Of a stretch of DNA of 39,929 nt, positions 11,138 to 33,065 are shown in pieces. Each line of letters starts with the position of its first letter. Position 1 is the first letter of the stretch. Position numbers and translations under genes: made by a program. The notes beneath the pieces are model-generated. The model searched no databases and had not been told where the DNA came from. It worked only from the letters and a program-made list of their open reading frames with translations. Location of the stretch: positions 1-39,929 of IMG/VR virus record IMGVR_UViG_3300032163_000044; one strand, written 5' to 3'. The stretch comes from a virus.

Positions 11138-12316
11138 CTACGTGACCAGCCGCAGCCCCGGCTCCTTCGTCGCCCTCGACGCCTTCACGAGCGCCTCGTC
11201 GAAGGCGTTCACGGCGGCGCGCTGGAGCTCGGGCACGGCCTCGACGTAGTAGTCGAAGGTGGTCCGCACGTCGACGTGGCCGAGCAGGTCGCGCAGGGAC
11301 TCGGGGTCGAGCAGTTGCCGGGTGGCGAAGTAGGTCGCGTACGCCCTCCGCAGGTCGTGGAGCGAGACGGCCAGGCCGCGGCGGGCCGTGATCTCGCAGA
11401 ACGAGTGGCTCACCGTGTCGGGACGCAGCGGCTGACCGTCGCCCTTGGCGCAGACGTAGCCGGCGTCCGAGTAGCCGGGCCCCGCGACGGCGCGCTCGGC
11501 GTCCTGGCGTTCGCGGTGGGCGAAGAGCTCGGCGATGGTGCTCGCCGGGATCGGGATGCGGCGCTCCCGCCCGGCCTTGGTGTCCTTGACGAACACGCCC
11601 TCGGCCTTGGTCTGTGAGAGCGAGGCGCAGACCAGCGCGACGCCGTGCTCGAGGTCGACGTGCTCCCACGTGAGCGCCAAGGCCTCGCCGCGGCGTACGT
11701 CGCAGGTCAGGCAGAGCAGGGCGACCAGATGGGCCGCCCTGCCGCGGCAGGCCTCGACCGCGGCGACCGCCTCGGCCAATGACGGCGCCGGCTGTTTGAC
11801 CGTGCGGCCCTTCGGCGCCTTCACGCGGCGCACCGGGTTGGTGCGCACGATGCCCATGGCGAGCGCCCACTCGTAGGCGCCGGAGAGCACGGCGCGCTGC
11901 TGGCGCACGGTGGCCGGCGCGTAGCCGTCTCCGTCGCGGCGCCCGCTCTTGAGCTGTGCCGCCTGCCACTCCTGCACGGCGGCGGGACGCAGACGGGCCG
12001 CGAGCAGCTCGCCGAAGACGGGCACGAGCGTGTCGTCGACGATGCCGGCGTAGCGTTCGCGCGTCTTGGCCCCGAGCTCGGCGCCGACGAGGTAGCGCGT
12101 CAGCAGCTGCTTGACCGTCAGCTTGGCGTCGGCCTCCATGCCGCCGCGGATCTCGTCGCTGCGGTCGCCGATCGCGGACAGGGCCTCGGTCCTCGTGCGG
12201 TAGTGCCCCACGGTCTCGCGCCGGGGGCCGCCGTTGGATTCGTCGACGTAGAGCACGGCGCGCCAAGTGACGCGGCCGGTACGCGGACTCGTGCGCTTCT
12301 CAGCGTGGCCGCTCAC
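11138..12316 (-). CDS. int: Tyrosine recombinase (phage integrase)
   Basis: 392 residues, GTG 12316 overlapping the upstream stop (GTGA). There is an N-terminal arm-binding-like domain (TGRVTWRAVLYVDES), a SAM-like core-binding domain (residues about 65-160, LTVKQLLTRYLVGAELG) and a catalytic domain with all key residues in sight: Arg in CDVRRGEAL, His/Arg in SLHDLRRAYA, His in LLGHVDVRTT and Tyr in TFDYYVEA. It integrates the phage at the attP described at 10373-10400. The gene is the last of the long leftward early operon. Confidence 0.95.
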   Translation of the reverse strand: MSGHAEKRTSPRTGRVTWRAVLYVDESNGGPRRETVGHYRTRTEALSAIGDRSDEIRGGMEADAKLTVKQLLTRYLVGAELGAKTRERYAGIVDDTLVPVFGELLAARLRPAAVQEWQAAQLKSGRRDGDGYAPATVRQQRAVLSGAYEWALAMGIVRTNPVRRVKAPKGRTVKQPAPSLAEAVAAVEACRGRAAHLVALLCLTCDVRRGEALALTWEHVDLEHGVALVCASLSQTKAEGVFVKDTKAGRERRIPIPASTIAELFAHRERQDAERAVAGPGYSDAGYVCAKGDGQPLRPDTVSHSFCEITARRGLAVSLHDLRRAYATYFATRQLLDPESLRDLLGHVDVRTTFDYYVEAVPELQRAAVNAFDEALVKASRATKEPGLRLVT

Positions 12317-12558
12317 GGCCGGCAGAACTCGCAGTCGCAGCTGGGAAGATGGTGCCAGCCGTCGGGTTCGTCTATCGGTGGGTGGAGCATGTCGGCGCCT
12401 GTGTTGACAATCCCCGTCTCCGGATCCGCGTCATCAGCGTCGTGCTGAATCCATGCGAACCCGATTCCGGGGACGAACACGCTAAGACCATTGGTGTAGC
12501 TCGTTTCCCATGCGAACCGCCCCGCCTTCTTCACCTGTTCCAGCGTCAGGTCACTCAT
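12313..12558 (-). CDS. Mini-protein, MSDLT/CEFC family copy 1
   Basis: 81 residues, ATG 12558. It begins MSDLTLEQVKKAGRFAWE and ends GWHHLPSCDCEFCRP; the copy at 13191-13421 begins and ends almost the same way, while the middles differ. The 41 bases encoding the N-terminus are nearly identical at DNA level in the two copies (4 mismatches). The terminal C-x-C-x-x-C pattern might bind metal. It overlaps int by 4 bp and the 14-residue ORF by 8 bp. Function unknown. Confidence 0.68.
   Translation of the reverse strand: MSDLTLEQVKKAGRFAWETSYTNGLSVFVPGIGFAWIQHDADDADPETGIVNTGADMLHPPIDEPDGWHHLPSCDCEFCRP
12518..12558 (-). repeat. 41-bp repeat, copy A
   Basis: Matches 13381-13421 with 4 mismatches in 41 bases. 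Both encode the first residues of the MSDLT/CEFC mini-proteins, which points to duplication within this array. Confidence 0.85.
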
Positions 12559-12595
12559 TACAGAACTCGCAATCGCGCTCAAGATAGGCGTTCAC
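12551..12595 (-). CDS. 14-residue micro-ORF, CEFC family remnant
   Basis: GTG 12595 overlaps the stop of the previous gene (GTGA); the product is MNAYLERDCEFCNE and its 3' end overlaps the next ATG by 8 bp. The CEFC ending matches those of the two 76-81-residue paralogs, so it may be a deletion remnant or a minimal functional version of the C-terminal motif. Confidence 0.4.
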   Translation of the reverse strand: MNAYLERDCEFCNE

Positions 12596-12942
12596 ACCGG
12601 CCTCGATGGCATGTATTCCTCCAAGAGGAGGATGGCACCCTCGTCCATCTTGAGGGTGAGGTCGCTGCTGGTCACGGTGTTCCCTGCCCAGACGTGCTGG
12701 TCCCAATTGACCGAGGCCCTCAGGGCGATGCCGGGATGCGCTATGTTCTCGCAATGGAAATGTGTCAGGATGCCGCGTTTGACGATGATCCGCATCTCCT
12801 TGTCGGGCGGCAGCACTGCTGCGAGCGTCCAGTGATCAACCCACCGCCAAGTGAACTCGATGTCGCTGTCTACACTGGAGAGACGTTGGTCGTCGCCGTC
12901 AACGCACCACACACGCCAGGTACTCATCGGATCGTCAGGCAT
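12592..12942 (-). CDS. 116-residue hypothetical protein
   Basis: ATG 12942, overlapping the preceding gene by 8 bp. The middle (RIIVKRGILTHFHCENIAHP ... ASVNWDQHVWAGNTV) alternates hydrophobic and polar residues like a small beta-sheet domain. The tail KMDEGAILLLEEYMPS suggests a helix. It contains a VGQR-free but generally similar layout to the 90-residue protein at 13418-13690 (both carry MRIIV/VRIVL strands). No family recognised. Confidence 0.6.
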   Translation of the reverse strand: MPDDPMSTWRVWCVDGDDQRLSSVDSDIEFTWRWVDHWTLAAVLPPDKEMRIIVKRGILTHFHCENIAHPGIALRASVNWDQHVWAGNTVTSSDLTLKMDEGAILLLEEYMPSRPV

Positions 12943-13198
12943 CGCGGGCCTTCCCTGGGTTGGTCACAGCGACCGTGGGGTTGAGCATCTTCGCAGCCAT
13001 GTCGTCCCGCTGCCACTTGTACTTGTCGCTAGACTGCTGTAGCTTCGCCGCCAGCCGGGCGATACGCTGGAGGGCGCACATGGCGCAGTCTTCTCGGCGG
13101 TCAATGATGCGTTGCGGCTTCAGGTTCTCGGCCACGAGAGCGAAGTCGACCGGGTCGATCCCGGCCTCGCCTAGAATCTCAAGCGGGTCATCAAGCAT
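12935..13198 (-). CDS. Mini-protein, DPLEIL family copy 1
   Basis: 87 residues from ATG 13198. It starts MLDDPLEILGEAGIDP; two downstream-numbered genes (13671-13763, 13756-14073) open with the same DPLEIL.(E/D)AGI motif. The middle has REDCAMCALQRIARLAAKL, a Cys pair beside a helix, followed by a charged segment. It overlaps genes on both sides by 8 bp. Function unknown; belongs to the accessory mini-gene array. Confidence 0.65.
   Translation of the reverse strand: MLDDPLEILGEAGIDPVDFALVAENLKPQRIIDRREDCAMCALQRIARLAAKLQQSSDKYKWQRDDMAAKMLNPTVAVTNPGKARDA
13156..13192 (-). repeat. 37-bp repeat, copy 1
   Basis: One of three near-identical 37-bp blocks (also 13721-13757 and 14028-14064) that encode the conserved N-terminal DPLEIL.EAGI segment of neighbouring mini-genes. 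Confidence 0.88.
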
Positions 13199-13421
13199 GG
13201 CGGGCCTCCTCGCAGAATTCGCAGTCACAGTCGGGGAAGAAGTGCTGCCAGCCAGCGCGCAGAGCTACATCGTCCTCATCCACTACCACTGGCCTCATGG
13301 GACACGAGTCGAACCACACGAAGGCATCGCGAAATGGAAAGTAGACGTACATGCCGCGTGCGTGGAAGGCTACGGCTGGCCGCCCCGCCTTCTTCACCTG
13401 CTCCGGGGTGAGGTCACTCAT
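13191..13421 (-). CDS. Mini-protein, MSDLT/CEFC family copy 2
   Basis: 76 residues, ATG 13421 overlapping the previous stop (ATGA). It begins MSDLTPEQVKKAGRPAVA and ends GWQHFFPDCDCEFCEEARHA. Its ends are shared with the gene at 12313-12558 and its centre differs (MYVYFPFRDAFVWF versus LSVFVPGIGFAWI, the same beta-strand pattern). A small beta domain closed by a Cys cluster is plausible. Confidence 0.68.
   Translation of the reverse strand: MSDLTPEQVKKAGRPAVAFHARGMYVYFPFRDAFVWFDSCPMRPVVVDEDDVALRAGWQHFFPDCDCEFCEEARHA
13381..13421 (-). repeat. 41-bp repeat, copy B
   Basis: Partner of 12518-12558; 37 of 41 bases match. It encodes the start of the second MSDLT/CEFC mini-gene. Confidence 0.85.
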
Positions 13422-13690
13422 CGCCAGATCACCATCAGCTTGTCCGGTGGCAGACCGGCGATCCGGACATTGACCCCGACGTCGCTCGCTACCTGATGAA
13501 CAGCGAGCGTGTCACGCACCGTCCACTCAGCAATAGGGAGGACGATGCGGACCTTGAACGCGTCTGCGTCGTACTCTCCAGGCCAGGGGGCATAGTGCAG
13601 CACATCGGGAGCGGATTCGTACCGACCCGCGAGCCTGAACTTGGGGCTTTCGAGGATGGCCAACAGAGTGTCACGCTGCCCGACGTTCAT
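13418..13690 (-). CDS. 90-residue hypothetical protein
   Basis: ATG 13690 (MNVGQRDTLLAILESPKFRL), starting inside the 3' end of the 30-residue ORF. It has strands such as FKVRIVLPIAEWTVRD and a C-terminal half VNVRIAGLPPDKLMVIW that looks like a small alpha/beta fold; the phrase LPPDK.M.I also appears in the 116-residue protein at 12592-12942 (LPPDKEMRIIV), so the two may be diverged paralogs. Function unknown. Confidence 0.62.
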   Translation of the reverse strand: MNVGQRDTLLAILESPKFRLAGRYESAPDVLHYAPWPGEYDADAFKVRIVLPIAEWTVRDTLAVHQVASDVGVNVRIAGLPPDKLMVIWR

Positions 13691-13763
13691 CCAGTCCCCC
13701 CATCCAAGACTCGTCCAACTCGATCCCGGCCTCGTGCAGAATCTCAAGTGGGCCGTCAGTCAT
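13671..13763 (-). CDS. 30-residue mini-ORF, DPLEIL family copy 2 (truncated)
   Basis: ATG 13763, product begins MTDGPLEILHEAGIELDESW and stops after 30 codons, 19 bp inside the next gene. It keeps the family N-terminus only. Either a decayed copy or a deliberately short peptide; the 37-bp repeat spans its 5' half. Confidence 0.5.
   Translation of the reverse strand: MTDGPLEILHEAGIELDESWMGGLDERRAA
13721..13757 (-). repeat. 37-bp repeat, copy 2
   Basis: Second copy of the block also at 13156-13192 and 14028-14064, with a few substitutions. Confidence 0.85.
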
Positions 13764-14073
13764 CGCGCGCCTCCCAGCGGGCGTCGAGGTCGGGATAGGT
13801 CGCCTTCAGCCACTCGCAGAATAGGGTCCAGTCCATCCATGCCCCGACATTGGTGAACCGATCCACCGCATCGAGCACGGCGAAAAGCGTCGTCTGCTGC
13901 TTCACCGCCAGCCGGGCGAGGGCGAGGATGGCGATATCGCCGCGAGCAATGACCTGCTCGTGCCATGTGGCATCGCCGTCCTCCTCGTGCCACGAACGTT
14001 CCTCGTACTCTGCCACCTCCGGGCACTCGATCCCGGCGTCGCGCAGAATCTCAAGCGGGTCGTCGATGGCCAT
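13756..14073 (-). CDS. Mini-protein, DPLEIL family copy 3
   Basis: 105 residues, ATG 14073 overlapping the previous TAA (TAATG). It starts MAIDDPLEILRDAGIECPE, then an acidic stretch and a helical C-terminal half (IAILALARLAVKQQTTLFAV, WTLFCEWLKATYPDLDA). The C-terminal helices match the ARLAAKLQQ helix of copy 1 in position. No function recognised; a small helical adaptor is possible. Confidence 0.66.
   Translation of the reverse strand: MAIDDPLEILRDAGIECPEVAEYEERSWHEEDGDATWHEQVIARGDIAILALARLAVKQQTTLFAVLDAVDRFTNVGAWMDWTLFCEWLKATYPDLDARWEARDD
14028..14064 (-). repeat. 37-bp repeat, copy 3
   Basis: Third copy of the block at 13156-13192 and 13721-13757; it encodes the DPLEIL motif of the 105-residue gene. 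Confidence 0.88.
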
Positions 14074-14438
14074 TAGTCTACCGCCTCATCGTCAAGCATC
14101 GTGAGTTGTCCGGGCTGGTCGGGTGGCGCATCCTCCGGCGGCCAGGCTGCGGCGGCGCGCAGATGGACGTAGCGGGCACGGCGGAAGGGCGCTTCGTACG
14201 GGATGGAGTAGCCACGCTGCCTGGAGCCCAGCACATTGACACCGAAGCGGCGCAGCATCTGCACGACGTCGCGAACCGCCCAGGAATCGTAGCCCGTGAA
14301 GCGGACCCACTCGCCTACGTGGCGCATGAGCTGGCCGGCGATTACGTCTGGAAAGTCCGGATCGTGGCGAGCCTGATAGCCGGCCGGCGCGAGGTACTTC
14401 GTCTCGGTCACGACGCTCGTCACCGGGCCGGCCACCAA
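14073..14438 (-). CDS. 121-residue protein with winged-helix-like core
   Basis: The segment DFPDVIAGQLMRHVGEW ... SWAVRDVVQMLRRFGVNVLG followed by GYSIPYEAPFRRARYVHLR reads as helices then a beta hairpin, much like a winged helix. The TAA stop is shared with the next gene's ATG. It follows the VRR-NUC gene with a 19-bp overlap. DNA binding is only inferred. Confidence 0.55.
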   Translation of the reverse strand: MVAGPVTSVVTETKYLAPAGYQARHDPDFPDVIAGQLMRHVGEWVRFTGYDSWAVRDVVQMLRRFGVNVLGSRQRGYSIPYEAPFRRARYVHLRAAAAWPPEDAPPDQPGQLTMLDDEAVD

Positions 14439-14818
14439 GAGAACGAGCGCATGAGCAGGTCGCAGTAGACGCGCAACGAGGCGCGCATGTCCTCACCCCG
14501 GAGACGGGCGACGGTCTCGAGATCGTCTCCCACGCCGTCGGCCACGCAGCACGCTACGCCGCGCCTACGCCACTCGATGAGCCGCGCCTTCTGCGCCTTG
14601 CGCACGCGGCCCCGCGGATTGAGCTTGGATGCAGGCTTTTTCATCTCGAGCCAGACCTGAAGACCATGTGGTGACGTGCAGAGCAGGTCGGGGATCCCCC
14701 GCGAGCCGACCCGCACGTCCTCCTGCATGACGTCCACGCTCCAACCGTAGAGGCGAAAGAGGTCCACGACGGCCTTCTGCGCCTGCTTCTCCGTGCAGGG
14801 GATCGCGTCACTGGCCAT
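14420..14818 (-). CDS. VRR-NUC domain nuclease
   Basis: 132 residues, ATG 14818. It fits the stand-alone VRR-NUC family of phages: KQAQKAVVDLFRLYGWSVDV, then GIPDLLCTSP with the catalytic Asp, QVWLEMKKPASK with the E-x-K pair, QKARLIEWRRRGVACCVADG at the end of the core. Members cut structured DNA such as Holliday-like junctions and probably act in recombination or replication. It overlaps the neighbouring genes at both ends. Confidence 0.85.
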   Translation of the reverse strand: MASDAIPCTEKQAQKAVVDLFRLYGWSVDVMQEDVRVGSRGIPDLLCTSPHGLQVWLEMKKPASKLNPRGRVRKAQKARLIEWRRRGVACCVADGVGDDLETVARLRGEDMRASLRVYCDLLMRSFSWWPAR

Positions 14819-15098
14819 GCTCGGCCTCGTATCGGGCGGCGAGGTCGGCTTGGGATTCTGCCAGACGAGCGTATCCCCATCCCTCGGCTACGGCACGAAT
14901 GGCGAGAAGCGATTCGTCGGAACGCCACAACCTCAGTCGCGCCACCTCAGTCTCGAGCCTCTGTTCATTCTTGATAGACTCGCTGAGGGCTCGGAGCGCT
15001 TCCGCCTGTTCCTCGTCCAGGGGGATGATGGCGTCCGCCTCTTGCAACAGCTCGTCCTCGTTCATCCGGTCGATCATCCAGTCGCCCGAACGGCTCAC
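14808..15098 (-). CDS. 96-residue charged helical protein
   Basis: GTG 15098 overlaps the upstream stop (GTGA). Acidic N-terminus (MNEDELLQEADAIIPLDEEQ) and a continuous predicted helix (EALRALSESIKNEQRLETEV). It may start instead at the internal ATG at 15062. No family recognised; it joins two other coiled-coil genes upstream. Confidence 0.55.
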   Translation of the reverse strand: MSRSGDWMIDRMNEDELLQEADAIIPLDEEQAEALRALSESIKNEQRLETEVARLRLWRSDESLLAIRAVAEGWGYARLAESQADLAARYEAEHGQ

Positions 15099-15562
15099 GG
15101 CTGCCTCCTCTCTTTGCGGGCGGCGAGTGCAGCGGCAATCTCAACGCAGCGCGCAACGCCTTCGTTGTATTCCTCAGACCCAGACAGGGTAGGAGGCGCT
15201 ATCCGCGCGTTCTCAAGGGCCTTCACCACCTCGTCGGGGAACTGCTTCAGCCGCGCCACCTCTTCCCCGCGCCGGTCCATCTCGGCCACGACCAGCTCGT
15301 ACTCCTCGCGGCCCGTCGCAAGGACGCGGTTGAGTTCCGCAACCTTGGCCTCGGCCTTCTCGGCGCGCTCTTTCTCCTCCTCGTATTGCATCTCGATTTG
15401 ATGTGTGTAGTCGGCCCCGTCGCGGGCGTCTGACCGCAACTCGGCGATGGCGGCGTCGGCCTTGGCGACGAGGATGCGTAGTCCGGTCTCCGTCTCACAT
15501 CCGGCGAGGGCGCGGTGTTCCTCCCACTCCCGCAGCTTCTCCGGCATCGGGTGGCCGCTCAT
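15095..15562 (-). CDS. Coiled-coil protein, MSGHP family copy 2
   Basis: 155 residues, ATG 15562 overlapping the previous stop (ATGA). It opens MSGHPMPEKLREWEEH; the preceding gene opens with the same MSGHPM, encoded by an identical 25-bp stretch. The centre is a long coiled coil (EEEKERAEKAEAKVAELNRV), followed by a segment ending ARCVEIAAALAARKERRQP. Function unknown. Confidence 0.6.
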   Translation of the reverse strand: MSGHPMPEKLREWEEHRALAGCETETGLRILVAKADAAIAELRSDARDGADYTHQIEMQYEEEKERAEKAEAKVAELNRVLATGREEYELVVAEMDRRGEEVARLKQFPDEVVKALENARIAPPTLSGSEEYNEGVARCVEIAAALAARKERRQP

Positions 15563-15569
15563 GTCGCTC
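15545..15569 (-). repeat. 25-bp identical repeat, copy 1
   Basis: Identical to 15790-15814. Both copies span the start codon and first codons (MSGHPM) of adjacent coiled-coil genes, evidence of local duplication of gene starts. Confidence 0.88.
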
Positions 15570-15816
15570 GGGCCTCGGCCTGCTCGGCGCGGTCCTTCCA
15601 CGACTGGCGCGCATCTTCGGCTACGTCCGCTTTCGCCTCGGCCTTCTCTGCGCGGTCGAACAGGGCTTGGATGTCGCCGTCGCCGATGCCGCGAGGACGA
15701 GCGGCTAGTTCGGCCTCAAGCTCGGCGATGCGGTTGAGGTCCGCTATCCACGCCTCGTAGTAGAACCATGCTCCGTTGGCGGGGTCGAACATCGGGTGGC
15801 CGCTCATGTCGCTCAT
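15559..15816 (-). CDS. Coiled-coil protein, MSGHP family copy 1
   Basis: 85 residues, ATG 15816. It opens MSDMSGHPMFDPANGAWFYY, then a coiled coil (RAEKAEAKADVAEDARQSWK) ending AEQAEARAT. A heptad-like EQAEARA unit also occurs in both neighbours. Overlap with the next gene is ATGA. Function unknown. Confidence 0.6.
   Translation of the reverse strand: MSDMSGHPMFDPANGAWFYYEAWIADLNRIAELEAELAARPRGIGDGDIQALFDRAEKAEAKADVAEDARQSWKDRAEQAEARAT
15790..15814 (-). repeat. 25-bp identical repeat, copy 2
   Basis: Partner of 15545-15569, at the start of the 85-residue coiled-coil gene. Confidence 0.88.
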
Positions 15817-16547
15817 CCCGTCCCCCCTTCCACGCCGCTGTTCGTCCACCGGCTCGGCTCGTACCGACAGCGACTCTCGTAGGGGCGCTGGTGGTCGTAG
15901 GCGTCGATGCGTTCGGGGCACTCGATCGTGCAATACATCGCGCTGCCGAAGGAGTCGAAGTGGTCACACGTGGCGCAGCACTCCAGCGCCTTGGCTCGGG
16001 CCTCGGCCTGCTCGTATCTGCGCTGTGCAATCTCTGCCTCACGGCAGGGAAGACGTTTCTCGTATAGCGCCTCGGCTCGGGCCTCGGCCTGCTCCAGGGA
16101 TTCCGTCAGTGCGTGTGTCATATCGCGATACGTGCCCTCTGACACACGAGCAATTCCCAGCGCGTACTCGGCCTCTTTCAGTTGCTCTTGAAGCGCCTTG
16201 ACTGTGGCCCACGTTGGCGCGGCGGCGAGTTGGGCCTCGAGCTCGATGACCCTGTTGGCCGCAACTATGCCCTTCTTCGCCGCCTTGGCGAGACCGCGCT
16301 TCTGCTGCTCGCACTTGGCAAGGTCGGCCGCGGCCACAAGTTGCTCCTTTACAAGTTGTGCCTTCAGCGCCGCGATGGCGGCGTCGGCGGCGTCCTTGAC
16401 GTCATCCTTGTTGCAATACGGGTCGGTTGAGGTCAAGTCCCACTCCCGCACCGCCGAGGCGGTGCGGGCCTCGTTGTCGCGGCCCATATCGCAGGTGTGG
16501 CTCGGAACTTCAACGTCCGGCATCGTGGGGTCCTTGGGCCAGCTCAT
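15813..16547 (-). CDS. Coiled-coil protein with Cys-rich C-terminus
   Basis: 244 residues, ATG 16547 (ATGA overlap). Residues about 50-190 form a coiled coil with several EQAEARA-type units; the C-terminal 55 residues carry CCATCDHFDSFGSAMYC and ECPERIDAYD, a likely zinc-binding module ending in CRYEPSRW. The layout, a long helix plus a terminal zinc cluster, suggests a scaffold or adaptor; no family recognised. Confidence 0.6.
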   Translation of the reverse strand: MSWPKDPTMPDVEVPSHTCDMGRDNEARTASAVREWDLTSTDPYCNKDDVKDAADAAIAALKAQLVKEQLVAAADLAKCEQQKRGLAKAAKKGIVAANRVIELEAQLAAAPTWATVKALQEQLKEAEYALGIARVSEGTYRDMTHALTESLEQAEARAEALYEKRLPCREAEIAQRRYEQAEARAKALECCATCDHFDSFGSAMYCTIECPERIDAYDHQRPYESRCRYEPSRWTNSGVEGGTG

Positions 16548-18014: not shown

Positions 18015-18520
18015 CAGAAAGGGATCTCGTCGTCGTTTGCAGGAACGGTGGCCGCCCTATTCGGGGTGAAGATGTCGACGGCGAACTTGGTTGCCGTGAC
18101 AGTCGGAACCAAGTAGCCATAGGCCGTTCCCGTGCCATTGGCTACTTGGTGGCCGAATCTGCCCGCTTCCGCCATCCACCGAAGAACGCTCACCGGCAAG
18201 AGATAGATGGTGCTGTAGTCACCGATGCAATACAGGCGCGGCGGAGGATCGTCGTAGATCCCGCACGGTCTCCAAGAGCTACTCTCATCAGTCGTCCGTC
18301 GTTCTCTCGTCTCAACGAATAGGTTGCCGGTCGTTGAGAACTTTCTGTCCTCCTTGATCTCGATCCCTTGCTGATTCTCGCCGAACTCCCACTGGTAGTA
18401 GCGCGAGCGATGCGGCAAGCAGACGATGTGGTTGTCCCAGAGGACAGACATCACGAAGTCCTCGTACTTCTTCCCGGCCTCCACCGCAGCGTCAAAGTCG
18501 GCCCTGGTCCGTTCATCCAT
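18014..18520 (-). CDS. Putative PD-(D/E)XK-like nuclease
   Basis: 168 residues from ATG 18520. The core VMSVLWDNHIVCLPHRSRYY ... GIEIKEDRKFSTTGNLFVET has an E-I-K pair after a beta strand and a second strand with acidic end, which fits a PD-(D/E)XK fold seen in phage restriction-like enzymes or resolvases. C-terminal part is beta-rich. It overlaps the methylase gene by 8 bp, so a methylase/nuclease pair is possible. Fold assignment is tentative. Confidence 0.55.
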   Translation of the reverse strand: MDERTRADFDAAVEAGKKYEDFVMSVLWDNHIVCLPHRSRYYQWEFGENQQGIEIKEDRKFSTTGNLFVETRERRTTDESSSWRPCGIYDDPPPRLYCIGDYSTIYLLPVSVLRWMAEAGRFGHQVANGTGTAYGYLVPTVTATKFAVDIFTPNRAATVPANDDEIPF

Positions 18521-19469
18521 CGCTTGCCTCGTTTCCCCAGACGTGCCAGCCCTCGGGGGTGTCGCCACGACGGAAGAGTTCGATGCGATTGCCGAAGGTG
18601 TACATGGAGTCGATCAGGACGCGGAACTCGTCAGGCTTGCGGCTATGCTTCGTGCGCTTGAAGGAGAAGACGCTGCCCTTCGTGTGGACTTGGTCGGCGG
18701 GGCACGATCCGCGCACGCCGATGAGGAGTAGTTCGTGAGAGATATGAGCGTAAGACCCACGGAACGGATGATGCTTGTCCCAGACGAGTGAGGCTTTGTA
18801 GCCGAACTCCCAGGCGCGCATGAGCTCTAAGGCGTCTTCAAGCATAGGCGACGTCGCCCAGAGGAAGAGCACCGAATCGGGCAGCGCCATCCGCGACACA
18901 GGCAGCGCCTTCAGTTCGCCGAGTTCCATCGTCGGGTACTGGTCCTCGACCATGCCTCCTTCGACGCCAGGTCTGTACTCCGTGAGGCCGGTCTGTCTGT
19001 ACTGCCACGGGGGATCGGCGTAGAAGACGCGGAAGGTCGGCTTGTCGAAAGCTGGGGCCGGAACGGCCGCGCGGCCTGCCTTTATATGATGGACTTGGCG
19101 GGCGGCCTCGCGGACCACGCCGGCGGTCGTCTTTGGGTCGTTGAAGTCGACGCGGCGGGCGACCTCGAGGATTTCTTCATCTGGGAGACGCACGAGAACC
19201 CGAGCCTGTTTCTCATCGCGCGGCACGTTGTGTACCCGGGTACACACTTGGGCCACATTTGCAGCCCTTATTTGTTGATAGGCCCTCCCCGAGGTCCACT
19301 TCCAGCGGCCACGAAGGTACTCCGCGAAGCTGTCATAGCCAGCGCCTATGTACAGCAGCCCGCGATCAATCTCGGCAAGTGCGAGACCGGCCTCATACCA
19401 AGCACCGACGAAGGTCTCGATCTTGGCCTCGCACTCAGCGAGCGACCGGACGACGACTGCCCTACTCAT
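18513..19469 (-). CDS. MT-A70-family DNA N6-adenine methyltransferase
   Basis: 318 residues, ATG 19469. The catalytic half has the DPPW motif (FRVFYADPPWQYRQTG, residues about 145-160), then SVLFLWATSPML and YKASLVWDKHHPFRG, and FGNRIELFRRG at the SAM-binding strand: the MT-A70 pattern. The N-terminal 140 residues are a helical DNA-binding-like domain (DSFAEYLRGRWKWTSGRAYQ), similar to ParB-associated regions. It could modify phage DNA to avoid restriction, or affect gene control. Confidence 0.9.
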   Translation of the reverse strand: MSRAVVVRSLAECEAKIETFVGAWYEAGLALAEIDRGLLYIGAGYDSFAEYLRGRWKWTSGRAYQQIRAANVAQVCTRVHNVPRDEKQARVLVRLPDEEILEVARRVDFNDPKTTAGVVREAARQVHHIKAGRAAVPAPAFDKPTFRVFYADPPWQYRQTGLTEYRPGVEGGMVEDQYPTMELGELKALPVSRMALPDSVLFLWATSPMLEDALELMRAWEFGYKASLVWDKHHPFRGSYAHISHELLLIGVRGSCPADQVHTKGSVFSFKRTKHSRKPDEFRVLIDSMYTFGNRIELFRRGDTPEGWHVWGNEASDG

Positions 19470-21393: not shown

Positions 21394-21845
21394 GGCGTGG
21401 CACTCCTTATTTGCTCGCGCACATGCGCGAGCAGATGTTCAATCGAACGCCCACTCCAGCCGTGGTGAAGTTCGTGGTGGAGCAGCTTGTGGCAGTTGTG
21501 ACAAAGGGGGATGCACTTGCCCAGTTCGGCGAGCAGCTCATCCAAGTCGATGATGCCGACGATGGACCCGTCCTTGGCGCTCGGATCGAGGTGATGAGCA
21601 GACATGATGCAGGGCAGGTAGGCGATCCCGCAGCAGGCGCACCCCGATTGATAGAACAGGTCGCGGAGCGCCACGCAAGGCTGACGGCGCGCGGCCGTGT
21701 ACGCCCGGGCACGGGCGCAGTCTTCCTCTCGGTGCTCGGCGTGCCGTGTGCGAGCCTTGGCGTTCTGCTCATCGCGGTGCGCAGCGTGATAGGCACGACT
21801 GTAGGCTGTGTCGTAGTCTCGCTGTGCTTCGGACTTCGCTGTCAC
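21390..21845 (-). CDS. HNH endonuclease, second copy
   Basis: 151 residues, GTG 21845 overlapping the exonuclease stop (GTGA). A helical N-terminus with YHAAHRDEQNAKARTRH repeats the style of the first HNH gene. The HNH core is CACCGI, SAHHLDPSAKDG, CIPLCHNCHKLLHH. It resembles the HNH at 9508-10185 in both core and repeats, so the two are likely paralogs. Homing or recombination role possible. Confidence 0.85.
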   Translation of the reverse strand: MTAKSEAQRDYDTAYSRAYHAAHRDEQNAKARTRHAEHREEDCARARAYTAARRQPCVALRDLFYQSGCACCGIAYLPCIMSAHHLDPSAKDGSIVGIIDLDELLAELGKCIPLCHNCHKLLHHELHHGWSGRSIEHLLAHVREQIRSATP

Positions 21846-22696
21846 GGCAAGACCTCGATCGTGTCGGAGTAGTCGGTCTCGTCCTCGAACAGCCATGGCG
21901 CCAGGTCGAGCGCCTGAGCGCCCTCGTAGCGTCCCGGCCAGATGCGTCGCCGCCGGCACTCTTTGACCTTGGCCAGCAGGTTGCTGACCATGTCCTCGCT
22001 GAGCGCCAGGTCTTCCTCGCCGATGTCGAAGACGCCGATGTCGTGCGGCGGCTTCTGCTCGACGGCGATGATGGCGACCCGCTCGAAGGGGACGCCGAGC
22101 GTGCGCAGGCCCATGGCCGCGAAGGCCATCTTGCCGCGGTAGCCGAGCTCGCCGGCGAGGCGTGCGAACTTGCGCTTCTCGGCGCTCCCCGTGGTCTTGA
22201 GGTCCGCGAGCAGGCCGCGCCGCACGAGATCGGGACGTGCCTTGCAGCGGATGTGCGTGGCCGGATCGACCCAGCGCAGGGTGACCTCGCGCTTGCAGTG
22301 CCGCATGACCCTGCGGGCCTCGCGACCCTGGCGGCCGTGAAGCACGGCCCAGGCGGCGCCCATGACCTGCTCGTACTGCTCGGGATTGAGCACGGTCGCG
22401 CCGGGATGTTCGGCCTTGAAGGTCTCCCAGGGGCCGCCGGACTTGCGCCCTTCGTAGATGACGTACTCGGCGTCGAAGATATCGGGCTCGAGCACGGCGG
22501 CGTGGATCGCGCTGCCGACGATCATGAGCGGCGTCGGCTGCTTGTCCGCGGTCAGCCCCTCGTGATAGGCGAGCATCGACGTGCGCGCGGCAGAGAGCTT
22601 TGACCAGCTCACGCCTTGCAGCCGCTGATACTCGGCGAAGGGGATGTCGGTACGCAGCCAGAGCTTGTGGATGCGCCGCTCCATGACGGTGCTCAT
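21842..22696 (-). CDS. PD-(D/E)XK exonuclease, RecE/DUF3799-like
   Basis: 284 residues, ATG 22696. The DUF3799/RecE signature is present: VSWSKLSAARTSMLAYHEGL, then GSAIHAAVLEPDIF, KARPDLVRRGLLADLKTTG with Asp and D-x-K catalytic residues, and KMAFAAMGLRTLG. These enzymes chew one DNA strand for homologous recombination. It stands in the recombination block with the HNH protein and the 185-residue protein. Confidence 0.88.
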   Translation of the reverse strand: MSTVMERRIHKLWLRTDIPFAEYQRLQGVSWSKLSAARTSMLAYHEGLTADKQPTPLMIVGSAIHAAVLEPDIFDAEYVIYEGRKSGGPWETFKAEHPGATVLNPEQYEQVMGAAWAVLHGRQGREARRVMRHCKREVTLRWVDPATHIRCKARPDLVRRGLLADLKTTGSAEKRKFARLAGELGYRGKMAFAAMGLRTLGVPFERVAIIAVEQKPPHDIGVFDIGEEDLALSEDMVSNLLAKVKECRRRRIWPGRYEGAQALDLAPWLFEDETDYSDTIEVLP

Positions 22697-29436: not shown

Positions 29437-31128
29437 TCACGTCGCCCCGCCGCGTCGCAGGTAGCGCGTGGTCTTCGTCTGGACGTGCCCCTTGGACCCG
29501 AGCGTCTCCCGGGCGGCGGTGCGCGGCCGGAAGCCGAGCGGATCCCAGGGCTCGCCCACGGTGGGGGTGCAGCGCTGCGTGCGGAAGTCGTAGGAGACGC
29601 GCTGCACGTAGAGGCCGTCGGCGTCGGCGTCGAGCAGGGAAGGCAGGGAGAGCCGGTCGCCGGGGCGCAGCTTGAGCGTCGGCACGCCTTCCTTCGGTCC
29701 CGGACTCGTGAGCGCCGTCTGCGGCAGCGCGACGTCGCCGGCATAAAGCGAGTCCTGCCGCGCGGCGTAGATGACCTGCGCGTACTGCGCCGCCAGCGCG
29801 GCCGTCATCGGCGGCTCGCCGGTCAGGTCGACGGTCTCGACCAGGGGGAAGGTCGCCGTCACGGAGGCCGGGTAGCGCGCCGCCTTGACCATGCCGTCCG
29901 GGAGCGTGGCATCGTTCTTGACCGCGTACAGCACCTCGACCTGCTCCGGGGTCGCCTCCCAATCGCGCCGCAGACCCGCGAGGTCTTCGCCGCCGCGCCC
30001 ACCGACCGACCAGAGGCGGTTGCGGGTCGTGTCAACGGACGTGGGGCGGGTGTTGGCGGTGAAGCGGAACGTCCCGTCTGGCGCGAGGTCGAAGTAGGCT
30101 TCGACTGGCGCGGCTTCCAGCAGCGTCGCCTGCTCGATGACGGCGGCGATGTTCGTCGGATAGCGGGCGATGAACTGCTCGGCCGCGGTAGTCAGCCCGT
30201 CGATGCGCGTCGTGGTCACGCCGAGGTCGGCAGCGCAGTCGGCGAGGATGGTGGCCGGCGACTGGGCCATGTCCGGGTGATAGGTGCCGTCAAGGTACTT
30301 GCCCGTGAGGATGACCTTGCGGAGCTTGATATACGGGTCGCTCGCCGGACTGGCCCCCGCTCCGACATAGACCAGTTCCAGCATCACGCACTGCTTGTCG
30401 AGGAAGCTGGGGCCGATTACGGTGTGGGCGGCGATCCAGCTGCCGGACGTGTTCTCATTCGTCCAGCCCGTGTGTGGGTTCCCGCTGACCGTATCGTGGA
30501 TGGTCGTGTAGGCCAGCATCGATGGAGCGGCCGGAGAGTCGGCCAGGTAGATGCCCGCGTACCAGTCCGAGTTCGGCAGGCTGAGTTTGTACTCGAAGGT
30601 CATGCCGCCGAAGTAGTCGCTCGCGTAGAGGCCGTCGTGGATGAAGTAGTAAAGGCGGCAGCCGTCGCTGTTGGCGTATGTGCGGTCGTTGTCGGCACGG
30701 AGTTCCAGCCCGCCTTCCTTCTGGACGGTAAAGCGGTTGAAATGGTCGCCAGCGGCGCGATACTGGTGCCAGCGGTCTTGGTCCGTGTCGATGCCAAGAT
30801 ACGCATAGCGGTTGCTCCGCGCCGCCATTGCCCACGGCCCCGCCGCCGACAGCTCCAGCGTGTCCTGCGCCCCGAGGCGGTGGCGCAGCGGATCACAGAC
30901 GAGGTAGCCGCCGTAGTCGCGCTCGCCGTCGACGGTCAGCTTGACGAGGGCCTCGGGGACGATGACGTTGCGGTACTTCTGCGCCACGTCGCCGGGAAGG
31001 CTGAACTCGAGCGAGCCGTCGCCGCCCGGCATCTCCTTGGTGCGGATGCCGAGGGTGGCGTCGGGGCCGAACTCCTGCCAGCCGAGGACGTCGGAGCCGA
31101 TGAGGAGGGAGGGGGTCAGGGATGTCAA
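29437..31128 (-). CDS. Tail-tip hub-like protein with inserted domain
   Basis: 563 residues. The N-terminus (GSDVLGWQEFGPDATLGIRT ... GSLEFSLPGDVAQKYRNVIV) and the end (TLKLRPGDRLSLPSLLDADA, DGLYVQRVSYDFRTQRC) match Gp37/Tal-like hub proteins that join the distal tail ring to fibres. A section at about 150-260 (YANSDGCRLYYFIHDGLYAS, DWYAGIYLADSPAAPSMLAY) looks like an inserted carbohydrate-binding beta-sandwich. It would form the tail tip. ATG/GTG start overlaps the preceding spike gene by 4 bp. Confidence 0.7.
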   Translation of the reverse strand: MTSLTPSLLIGSDVLGWQEFGPDATLGIRTKEMPGGDGSLEFSLPGDVAQKYRNVIVPEALVKLTVDGERDYGGYLVCDPLRHRLGAQDTLELSAAGPWAMAARSNRYAYLGIDTDQDRWHQYRAAGDHFNRFTVQKEGGLELRADNDRTYANSDGCRLYYFIHDGLYASDYFGGMTFEYKLSLPNSDWYAGIYLADSPAAPSMLAYTTIHDTVSGNPHTGWTNENTSGSWIAAHTVIGPSFLDKQCVMLELVYVGAGASPASDPYIKLRKVILTGKYLDGTYHPDMAQSPATILADCAADLGVTTTRIDGLTTAAEQFIARYPTNIAAVIEQATLLEAAPVEAYFDLAPDGTFRFTANTRPTSVDTTRNRLWSVGGRGGEDLAGLRRDWEATPEQVEVLYAVKNDATLPDGMVKAARYPASVTATFPLVETVDLTGEPPMTAALAAQYAQVIYAARQDSLYAGDVALPQTALTSPGPKEGVPTLKLRPGDRLSLPSLLDADADGLYVQRVSYDFRTQRCTPTVGEPWDPLGFRPRTAARETLGSKGHVQTKTTRYLRRGGAT

Positions 31129-33065
31129 GTCACGGCCCTGTGAACCCAGAAACGGCCACGTGCGGCGACGGTTTCAGCACCGCTAACGTCCGTGATGCGT
31201 AGTTGCCAGTGGTAGAACCCGGCGAGCGCGGACGTGTTGGCCGTCGCGAGCGTCACCGAGATTTGCCCATTCACCGCGTCCGGGTAGCTGATGCCCGCGT
31301 TCGTCGTCCTCTCGAAGAGGTGCGCGTTTCCAGCGGCGGCAGCGACGCGGAAGCTGGCGGTGGTCCCGGTCAAGTCGTATCCGGACAGCGTCATGCGGTA
31401 GTCGATCTCGTCTCCGGCGACGCACGAGAGGTCGGCTATCCCCGGGACCGAGGCGAACGAAATGCTTCGGTCGCTCACATCCGCCCCGGCGGCGACCGGC
31501 ATGATGGCAGCCTTGATCTTCCACTGCGCCCCGGCCGGTTGCAGCCAATAGGAGAAATGACGGTTCGCCGTGTAGTAGAGGACGTAGCGATTGTTGTCGC
31601 GCACGAACTGGGCGTCGGCGATCTGGCTGGTACTGAGGCCCTCGCCCTCGTCAAGCCCCGTCCGCGAGAGTAGGGGCATCGCGTCCACGATCCAGCTGAC
31701 TCCGTCCAAACTGTGCGCCTGGGCTATGTCATCGCCGAGCCCGGCGTCGTAGTGGAACCACATATAGGCGACACCCTCGATGGTGACGACGTGCGGGGCG
31801 TAGCCTTTATCGGAGGGATCCGTGAAGATAGGCCCGGTGCCGTAATGCGTCCAAGGACCGGCGATGGAGAGGGAGGTCGCCAGGCCGGGGCCGCCGTCGA
31901 TCGTGGCGTAGAACAGATGCCACGTACGTCCGTCAAGGCCGAGCCACGGGACGGGGTTATCGAGTTCCGTACACCACCCCGGCTTGGCGAGAGCCACCAC
32001 CGGCGCACTCCATGCGATGCCGTCGGCCGAAGTCTTGTGGAAGATCTTGGTCTGGTAGTCAGCCCCCCAACAAATCTGGAACATGTGATAGACATCGTCG
32101 ACCTTGACGACGTTCGATTCCGAACCGTCGGCGACGACCGGGTTGCCGGCATACTTCGTCCATGGCCCCAGCGCATCCGGTGCGGTCGCGTAGCCGATCC
32201 CGTTGAACCCCGTGTACCACATCTTCCAGAGGCCGTCGTCATTGATGACCGACGACTCAGCGAGGACTCCGTGACCGTAGAGGTTCCCGGGAGCCATCCC
32301 GGCGCAGTAGTTATAGCGGATGTGTATCTCGTCGAGCGGGGCCGAGTAGATGCGGACGGCTCCGATCTTGCCCTTGAAGTGAGCCGCTGCGCTGCCGATC
32401 ATGGGGAGGGCGTCGCTGTCCATCGACCCAGTAGCCCCAGAGATGTCCAGACCGCCGACCTGCACGCCGTCGACATAGCAGGTCGCCGTGCCGCCGCGTA
32501 CGAAGTTGACGACCATGTGGTGCCACAGGCCGTCATTCACGGTGACGCTGGTGCTGATGTCGCCTTCCACGTAGTTCGCGGCGCCGCCCATGGTGATGCG
32601 GGGCTTGCCGTTCGTGCCGTAGCCGAAGCGGAATCCCTGGACACCCGAGCCGGCGCCCTTCGTCACCATGTAGCCTTGCCCCACGCCGGTATCCGTCGCG
32701 GCGAACCAGGCTTCCACGGCGAAGGAGCTCTCCCCGAAATTGAACGCGGCGTAGGAGCTGTAGGCGACGTACTCATCGCCGGCGAAAACGAGGCAGTATG
32801 GGTCGAAGGGGATGCCGCCGCCGGACCAGCCGGACGCCTCCGTTTCGAGGAATCCCGTCAGGTGACCCGCGCAGCCGGCGCCACTGTCGTCGTACCATGA
32901 GTCGATGAAGACCGGGGTGTTGCTCCCGGGAGCAGTCCCTGCGTCGGCGGTAGCGGCGGTGTGCTGCGATACGAAGCCGGTCAGGACGTAGGGATACTCC
33001 CACTCCTGGCTCGTGGTGAACATCTCGCCCTTGCGGGTCCAAGGACCGACGCCGAGGAGTGTCAT
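31125..33065 (-). CDS. Tail spike: LamG-type domain plus five-bladed beta-propeller (GH43-like) plus Ig-like end
   Basis: 646 residues, ATG 33065. Residues about 90-250: LamG/concanavalin domain (SFAVEAWFAATDTGVGQGYM, LWHHMVVNFVRGGTATCYVD). Residues about 265-525: beta-propeller blades of glycosyl-hydrolase GH43/32-type, each with a Trp/Tyr-rich strand such as DDGLWKMWYTGFNGIGYATA, DDVYHMFQICWG, GRTWHLFYATIDGG, GVAYMWFHYDAG and NRYVLYYTANRHF. GPWTKYAGNPVV, GPWTHYGTGPIF and the N-terminal GPWTRKGEMF have the same motif, so the N-terminus may close the propeller. Residues about 530-646 are a BppU/Ig-like domain. Probably recognises or degrades a surface polysaccharide; catalytic acids are not certain. 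Confidence 0.72.
   Translation of the reverse strand: MTLLGVGPWTRKGEMFTTSQEWEYPYVLTGFVSQHTAATADAGTAPGSNTPVFIDSWYDDSGAGCAGHLTGFLETEASGWSGGGIPFDPYCLVFAGDEYVAYSSYAAFNFGESSFAVEAWFAATDTGVGQGYMVTKGAGSGVQGFRFGYGTNGKPRITMGGAANYVEGDISTSVTVNDGLWHHMVVNFVRGGTATCYVDGVQVGGLDISGATGSMDSDALPMIGSAAAHFKGKIGAVRIYSAPLDEIHIRYNYCAGMAPGNLYGHGVLAESSVINDDGLWKMWYTGFNGIGYATAPDALGPWTKYAGNPVVADGSESNVVKVDDVYHMFQICWGADYQTKIFHKTSADGIAWSAPVVALAKPGWCTELDNPVPWLGLDGRTWHLFYATIDGGPGLATSLSIAGPWTHYGTGPIFTDPSDKGYAPHVVTIEGVAYMWFHYDAGLGDDIAQAHSLDGVSWIVDAMPLLSRTGLDEGEGLSTSQIADAQFVRDNNRYVLYYTANRHFSYWLQPAGAQWKIKAAIMPVAAGADVSDRSISFASVPGIADLSCVAGDEIDYRMTLSGYDLTGTTASFRVAAAAGNAHLFERTTNAGISYPDAVNGQISVTLATANTSALAGFYHWQLRITDVSGAETVAARGRFWVHRAVT

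Follow-up and report, generated by a model that had tools for sequence, protein, structure and literature searches.

What are the eight small, overlapping open reading frames (ORFs) that adjoin the integrase gene of a viral genome, and why are their ends alike when their centres differ? The window analysed is the whole of IMG/VR virus record IMGVR_UViG_3300032163_000044, a 39,929-base stretch with a 127-bp terminal repeat, in which the recognisable genes all lie on the minus strand. The array runs from 14073 to 12313 on that strand, between an upstream VRR-NUC nuclease gene and a tyrosine integrase gene, and its ORFs were named in transcription order D1, D2, P1, C1, D3, P2, tiny, and C2 (Table 1). 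An initial annotation had described eight end-to-end ORFs, repeated DNA blocks, and conserved gene ends with differing centres, as if a set of small proteins were being shuffled. All eight ORFs were found with the overlaps it described (8, 20, 4, 8, 8, 4, and 8 bp in order from D1 to C2). As judged from their sequences, D and C represent two phage protein families that had not been described before, and the array is probably an accessory locus of small genes in a temperate phage, with a D-X-C cassette beside the integrase as its building unit.

The D block occurs three times in the array and the C block twice. The best ungapped 36-nucleotide identity within the array was 32, whereas 100 dinucleotide shuffles averaged 23 and never exceeded 26, so that chance falls far short of accounting for the repeated blocks. 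D proteins have the head M-x-DDPxEILxxAG followed by a helical body. We defined membership by the head M-x-D-[DN]-P-x3-L together with an AL...AR helix, and D1, D3, and eight genes in other phages carry both, although the helix of L120a is divergent; D2 has just the head. C proteins have the head DLTLEQVREAG and the tail W-x-H-x(3,4)-CxCEFC. Membership here was defined by an N-terminal LT-x2-QV-x3-G and a C-terminal C-x-C-x2-C, which are present in C1, C2, and five genes of four other phages (invariant L4, T5, Q8, V9, G13, C74, C76, and C79). The CEFC motif that the initial annotation placed at the end of three ORFs does lie near their ends but is not terminal, being followed by 2 to 6 residues each time. 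The array holds two D-P-C cassettes plus an extra D, in the order D-D-P-C and then D-P-(C tail)-C. Homology between P1 and P2, suggested earlier from a shared LPPDK.M.I, was dropped: the best 27-nucleotide identity was 21, with values up to 20 in 15 codon shuffles, and the protein similarity was not significant (z 2.1).

None of the array proteins had a match in Pfam, PHROGs, NCBIfam, PADLOC, or PDB sequences, in agreement with the earlier statement that no described family could be linked to them. Full-length searches were also empty in viral contigs (C1, the C alignment, and the D alignment), INPHARED (C1 and D3), and genome contigs (a two-sequence C alignment). These searches missed the families because only the ends are conserved, and short end patterns were required. 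A DNA pattern for the C tail (W-x-H-x3-C-x-C-E-F-C) matched five viral contigs, four of which carry a full C gene with the same head, and an independent pattern for the C head picked out those four C-bearing contigs and no others from the IMG/VR collection of 2.9 million. Hidden Markov model E values for the four C genes outside the window were 6e-24 to 1e-31, with a model built from those same genes. D genes were recognised among the neighbours of C in three of the four contigs, and a D-head DNA pattern contributed loci L098, L101, L109, and L112. A first D-head pattern, in the window's own spelling, had given three matches only, none a relative when read. Records G047 and G048 encode the same D protein and overlap at 100% identity, and they were counted as one phage. 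One or both families were found in eight phages, the window and seven others. The families were not found in INPHARED, nor C in PLSDB. TerL relatives (80 loci) do not carry the array, and the whole records behind half of them gave no C or D match. A paper describing such loci was not found in the open-access literature.

The position between replication genes and integrase, to which the initial annotation had drawn attention, is correct and recurs in relatives. Gene order is D-D-X-C-integrase in L120 (G041), integrase-D-C in L121 (G042), C-zinc-motif gene-D-C-small hydrophobic ORF-D in L122 (G043), C-integrase in L123 (G044), where C ends a longer open frame, zinc-motif gene-D-X-X-integrase in L124 (G045), and D-X-integrase in L125 (G047). 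A PF00589 search found one integrase in each of eight records, always adjoining D/C genes. The integrases of the relatives are just 26-28% identical to that of the window, yet the linkage is kept. In all phages seen, the larger ORFs have intact frames and overlap, and the ratio of nonsynonymous to synonymous substitution rates (dN/dS) was 0.17-0.68 for aligned pairs. Ratios below 1 together with intact frames speak for real proteins.

Because of this fixed place beside the integrase, the main rival explanation is a lysogeny accessory, in which D and C work with the integrase in the choice or timing of integration or else control its translation. Such a role would fit the overlap of C2 with the integrase start, where no clear ribosome-binding site precedes the integrase, and the C stop codon of L123, which coincides with the integrase start. 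It is harder to reconcile with L121, in which the integrase lies upstream of D and C, and with L122, a 94-kb record that holds D and C and in which the PF00589 search detected no integrase. That D and C stay linked while the integrases diverge so strongly also speaks against it. The array proteins are mostly acidic, have no significant Pfam or PHROG match, and lack the helix-turn-helix (HTH) motif of an excisionase or recombination directionality factor; a separate excisionase-like HTH_17 gene, probably Xis or a regulator, lies downstream of the integrase at 10746-10423 on the minus strand. On balance we regard a lysogeny role as rather unlikely.

In D3, the histories of head and body conflict. 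The D3 body matches a D gene of L122 (38/79 residues identical, 48%; pairwise E 3e-22; z 24 for the body alone), while the D1 and D3 bodies barely match each other (z 2.0); the D1 body is nearest to the L101 D protein (z 7.8). The heads of D1, D2, and D3 use the same codon at 20/26 shared residues, compared with 34/156 to other phages (p 9e-8; the pairs are not independent). Since the head codons are nearly identical within the window while the D3 body is orthologous to that of L122, the simplest reading of these alignments is that a head was copied within the window genome.

Loss and joining of parts can also be seen. The L124 D protein ends in a C tail, GWHHLKGCYCPYC, and the 33 nucleotides that encode it match a C-gene tail of L122 at 91% identity. 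L122 and L124 also have the upstream zinc-motif-D stretch in common, and the L124 D gene is a D-body/C-tail fusion, a joining of parts. The zinc-motif gene itself (VCPFDG...ICPxCDCRFRADAW) encodes a small protein and lies directly upstream of D at 10871-11041 in L122 and 7720-7893 in L124 (dN/dS 0.17). Within the window, D2, a head without a body, and the 14-codon ORF, a tail without a head, look like leftovers; the latter's tail has a 26-nucleotide match to the L123 C-gene tail (85%), which is weak on its own. The D and C heads have a common spacing from the methionine, M-x-D-x3-E-x2-R/K-x-AG, which was equalled in 21 of 5,000 column permutations and suggests that both belong to one head type. 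With the head/body conflict, the orphan tail, and the fusion, the earlier impression that ends are kept while centres differ, as if shuffled, is borne out, also in other phages.

Two further explanations bear on these data. D and C could be two ordinary families whose termini are required by the structure and whose loops tolerate change, with no shuffling past normal divergence. Cross-phage codon identity near expectation favours this, as it places end conservation mostly at the protein level, and so does the C structure model, whose confident parts are the head and tail. The nearly codon-identical heads of the window beside a D3 body orthologous elsewhere, and the L124 fusion of a D body with a C tail, make this explanation unlikely. 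Alternatively, an old two-family cassette was duplicated and is now being lost, so that the mosaic would be debris without selected diversity. D2 and the 14-codon ORF resemble remnants, and GC and third-position GC of the array are below those of the integrase (GC is ~61% across the array versus ~65-71% in most of the genome). Intact, overlapping larger ORFs in all phages, dN/dS under 1, and stop/start overlaps that appear to be selected argue against decay, which we consider improbable.

Several observations nevertheless limit the proposed explanation. Between phages, C heads and tails of the window match those of its relatives at 81-90% DNA identity across 36-53 nucleotides. Where residues are identical, however, the share of identical codons was 0.60 for C and 0.51 for D, close to codon-usage expectation (0.55 and 0.50) and to an integrase control (0.54), and on this test the idea of recent exchange of ends between phages was rejected. 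The C heads alone were somewhat over expectation. Between phages the ends thus seem to be conserved mainly as protein, and the codon comparison supports copying only inside the window; the variable middles could be merely tolerant loops. Of the four possible zinc ligands in C, the three cysteines are invariant throughout the family, but the tail histidine is present in 6/7, with x3 or x4 spacing, and is missing from paralogue L122b. The D structure model is poor (predicted template modelling score, pTM, 0.27), helical but unreliable. C was absent from 396 Actinomycetota genomes, 296 genomes of the class to which an Acidimicrobiia locus belongs, and 301 Chloroflexota genomes, and D was not found in the 396 Actinomycetota genomes; these searches had no positive control and do not prove D and C to be phage-only families.

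An exonuclease VIII-like gene is present at 21842-22696 (DUF3799, PHROG 412), although RecT was not found in the window, and because of this a Red-type short-homology route for head copying is not shown. RVT_1 is absent from the window and eight related records, so diversification by a diversity-generating retroelement is unlikely. An invertible shufflon is not supported: there are no inverted repeats in 12200-14900, and only one tyrosine integrase was found; serine recombinases were not searched for. In type I restriction HsdS subunits, conserved segments flank variable ones that are swapped by recombination, a likeness to the array that is one of layout only.

The heads may also explain how such changes are tolerated. 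Most begin ATG-NNT-GAC, in which ATG-NNT-GA provides a stop for the upstream frame, and at junctions in the window and L120 this sequence is mostly used as an 8-bp overlap. Codon 2 ends in T in 15/20 array genes (p 1e-10 against 12%; not all are independent), whereas T occupies 8-13% of third positions elsewhere, and ATGNNTGA starts are found in 15/20 array genes versus 3/24 other window genes. The stop/start overlaps therefore appear to be under selection. The likely ribosome-binding sites of D2, D3, and P2 lie within the final codons (EAR/KAR) of the preceding gene; of the conserved gene ends described earlier, the ends as such are kept, but the EAR/KAR part is explained by the next gene's ribosome-binding site. 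Upstream 24-nucleotide stretches have only GAGG/GGAGG-type elements in common, at some genes, and no promoter-like site was seen inside the array. As each head supplies a stop for the previous gene, the operon could gain or lose genes and stay translationally coupled, and the heads would keep it readable whatever gene comes before.

The nearest described repeated start element is the start-associated sequence (SAS) of cluster K mycobacteriophages, a 13-bp, GGGATAGGAGCCC-like, non-coding sequence a few bp upstream of start codons, in the position of the ribosome-binding site (PMC3203893). Like the SAS and extended SAS, the array blocks are short repeated DNAs at the starts of many small non-structural phage genes, are tied to translation initiation, and can involve an upstream stop codon, which in the SAS/extended SAS sometimes lies within the element. 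They differ in that the array block lies not upstream of the ORF but within it, from the ATG onwards, and codes for a protein head that is conserved from phage to phage.

The C structure model (predicted local distance difference test 77, pTM 0.61) has a helix at 6-12 and three strands at 16-38; the stretch at ~41-60 is weak, and the C-terminal tail is confident. In C, a head like that of D is thus combined with a predicted helix and a sheet of three strands, then with a variable loop and, at the C terminus, a His/Cys tail that is a putative site for one zinc ion. Fold searches with the model found no match (best E 0.7 with Foldseek and best Z 3.1 with VIA-align), which says little. D proteins are small, mostly acidic, and rich in helix, and carry the head at the N terminus.

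In the proposed accessory locus, cassettes would be duplicated in tandem, loss of bodies would leave heads or tails behind, the body of one gene could be joined to the tail of another, and heads could be copied between neighbouring genes. The conserved ends would then be a common scaffold or docking part, with variable parts facing changing host targets. Because constant ends and a changing part suggest changing targets, host takeover or counter-defence during infection or lysogeny is the most likely role, one that we advance only tentatively. The initial annotation had pointed to such a role, which the position and variability of the array make a reasonable guess. More speculatively, the head may be a module that can be carried from gene to gene, coupling translation and also docking, as a helix, with one common partner; phages would place different bodies and tails behind it and so build new host-acting small proteins. 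The families, conserved ends, cassette order, integrase linkage, mosaicism, and overlaps are much better supported by the sequences than is the function.

Phage accessory and anti-defence loci, such as those for anti-CRISPR or host takeover, encode small acidic proteins in variable coupled operons near early or lysogeny genes. The array likewise is a variable coupled operon of small, mostly acidic proteins of unknown fold; it differs in having no match to a described family and no HTH "aca"-type regulator inside. To our knowledge, heads and tails of a modular kind have not been described in anti-defence small-gene loci. PADLOC, which gave no match, covers defence and not anti-defence. A DNA-mimic function was considered and rejected: acidity is common but not universal among D and C proteins, and it is as marked in other small proteins of the phage. 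The analysis defines two families of small proteins that are absent from standard libraries and provides a concrete case in which copying of a gene's 5′ end within a genome may be read from sequence. If the role is host directed, the head and tail patterns offer a handle for more such integrase-side loci in uncultured phages.

Table 1. Array ORFs and adjoining genes in the window
Feature	Coordinates	Strand	Description
VRR-NUC nuclease	14420..14818	-	Upstream neighbour; PF08774, E 5e-6
g0	14073..14438	-	Upstream of array, probably outside array proper; no family match
D1	13756..14073	-	D family, 105 aa; head MAIDDPLEILRDAGI; body type 2 (AILALARLA helix); acidic, isoelectric point 4.2
D2	13671..13763	-	30 aa; D-family head without recognisable body; probable remnant
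P1	13418..13690	-	90 aa; middle gene X of first D-X-C cassette; no relatives found
C1	13191..13421	-	C family, 76 aa; head MSDLTPEQVKKAG; tail GWQHFFPDCDCEFC
D3	12935..13198	-	D family, 87 aa; body type 1 (DCxxCALxRIARL ... KYKWQRD); orthologous to L122 9873-10247
P2	12592..12942	-	116 aa; middle gene X of second cassette; N terminus MPDDP resembles D head
tiny	12551..12595	-	14-codon ORF VNAYLERDCEFCNE; orphan C-family tail, probable scar
C2	12313..12558	-	C family, 81 aa; head MSDLTLEQVKKAG; tail GWHHLPSCDCEFC; coupled to integrase, 4-bp overlap
Tyrosine integrase	11138..12316	-	Adjoins array; PF00589, E 1.5e-15

Other genes were noted in passing. Just upstream of the VRR-NUC gene, at 14808-16547, is a run of small, coupled genes; some are of coiled-coil type, and the run has short stretches of DNA that match other array phages. 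A gene at 18513-19469 encodes an MT-A70 DNA methyltransferase and adjoins the replication initiation gene, and the 646-aa product of an ORF at 31125-33065 resembles, by eye, a sugar-binding or glycosidase-type tail protein. Among the relatives, L125 carries at 11185-11964 a gene that by eye is PAPS-reductase-like (FSGGKDSQV), ~0.5 kb upstream of the D gene, and methylase-like genes, also recognised by eye, lie near the arrays in L123 and L101.

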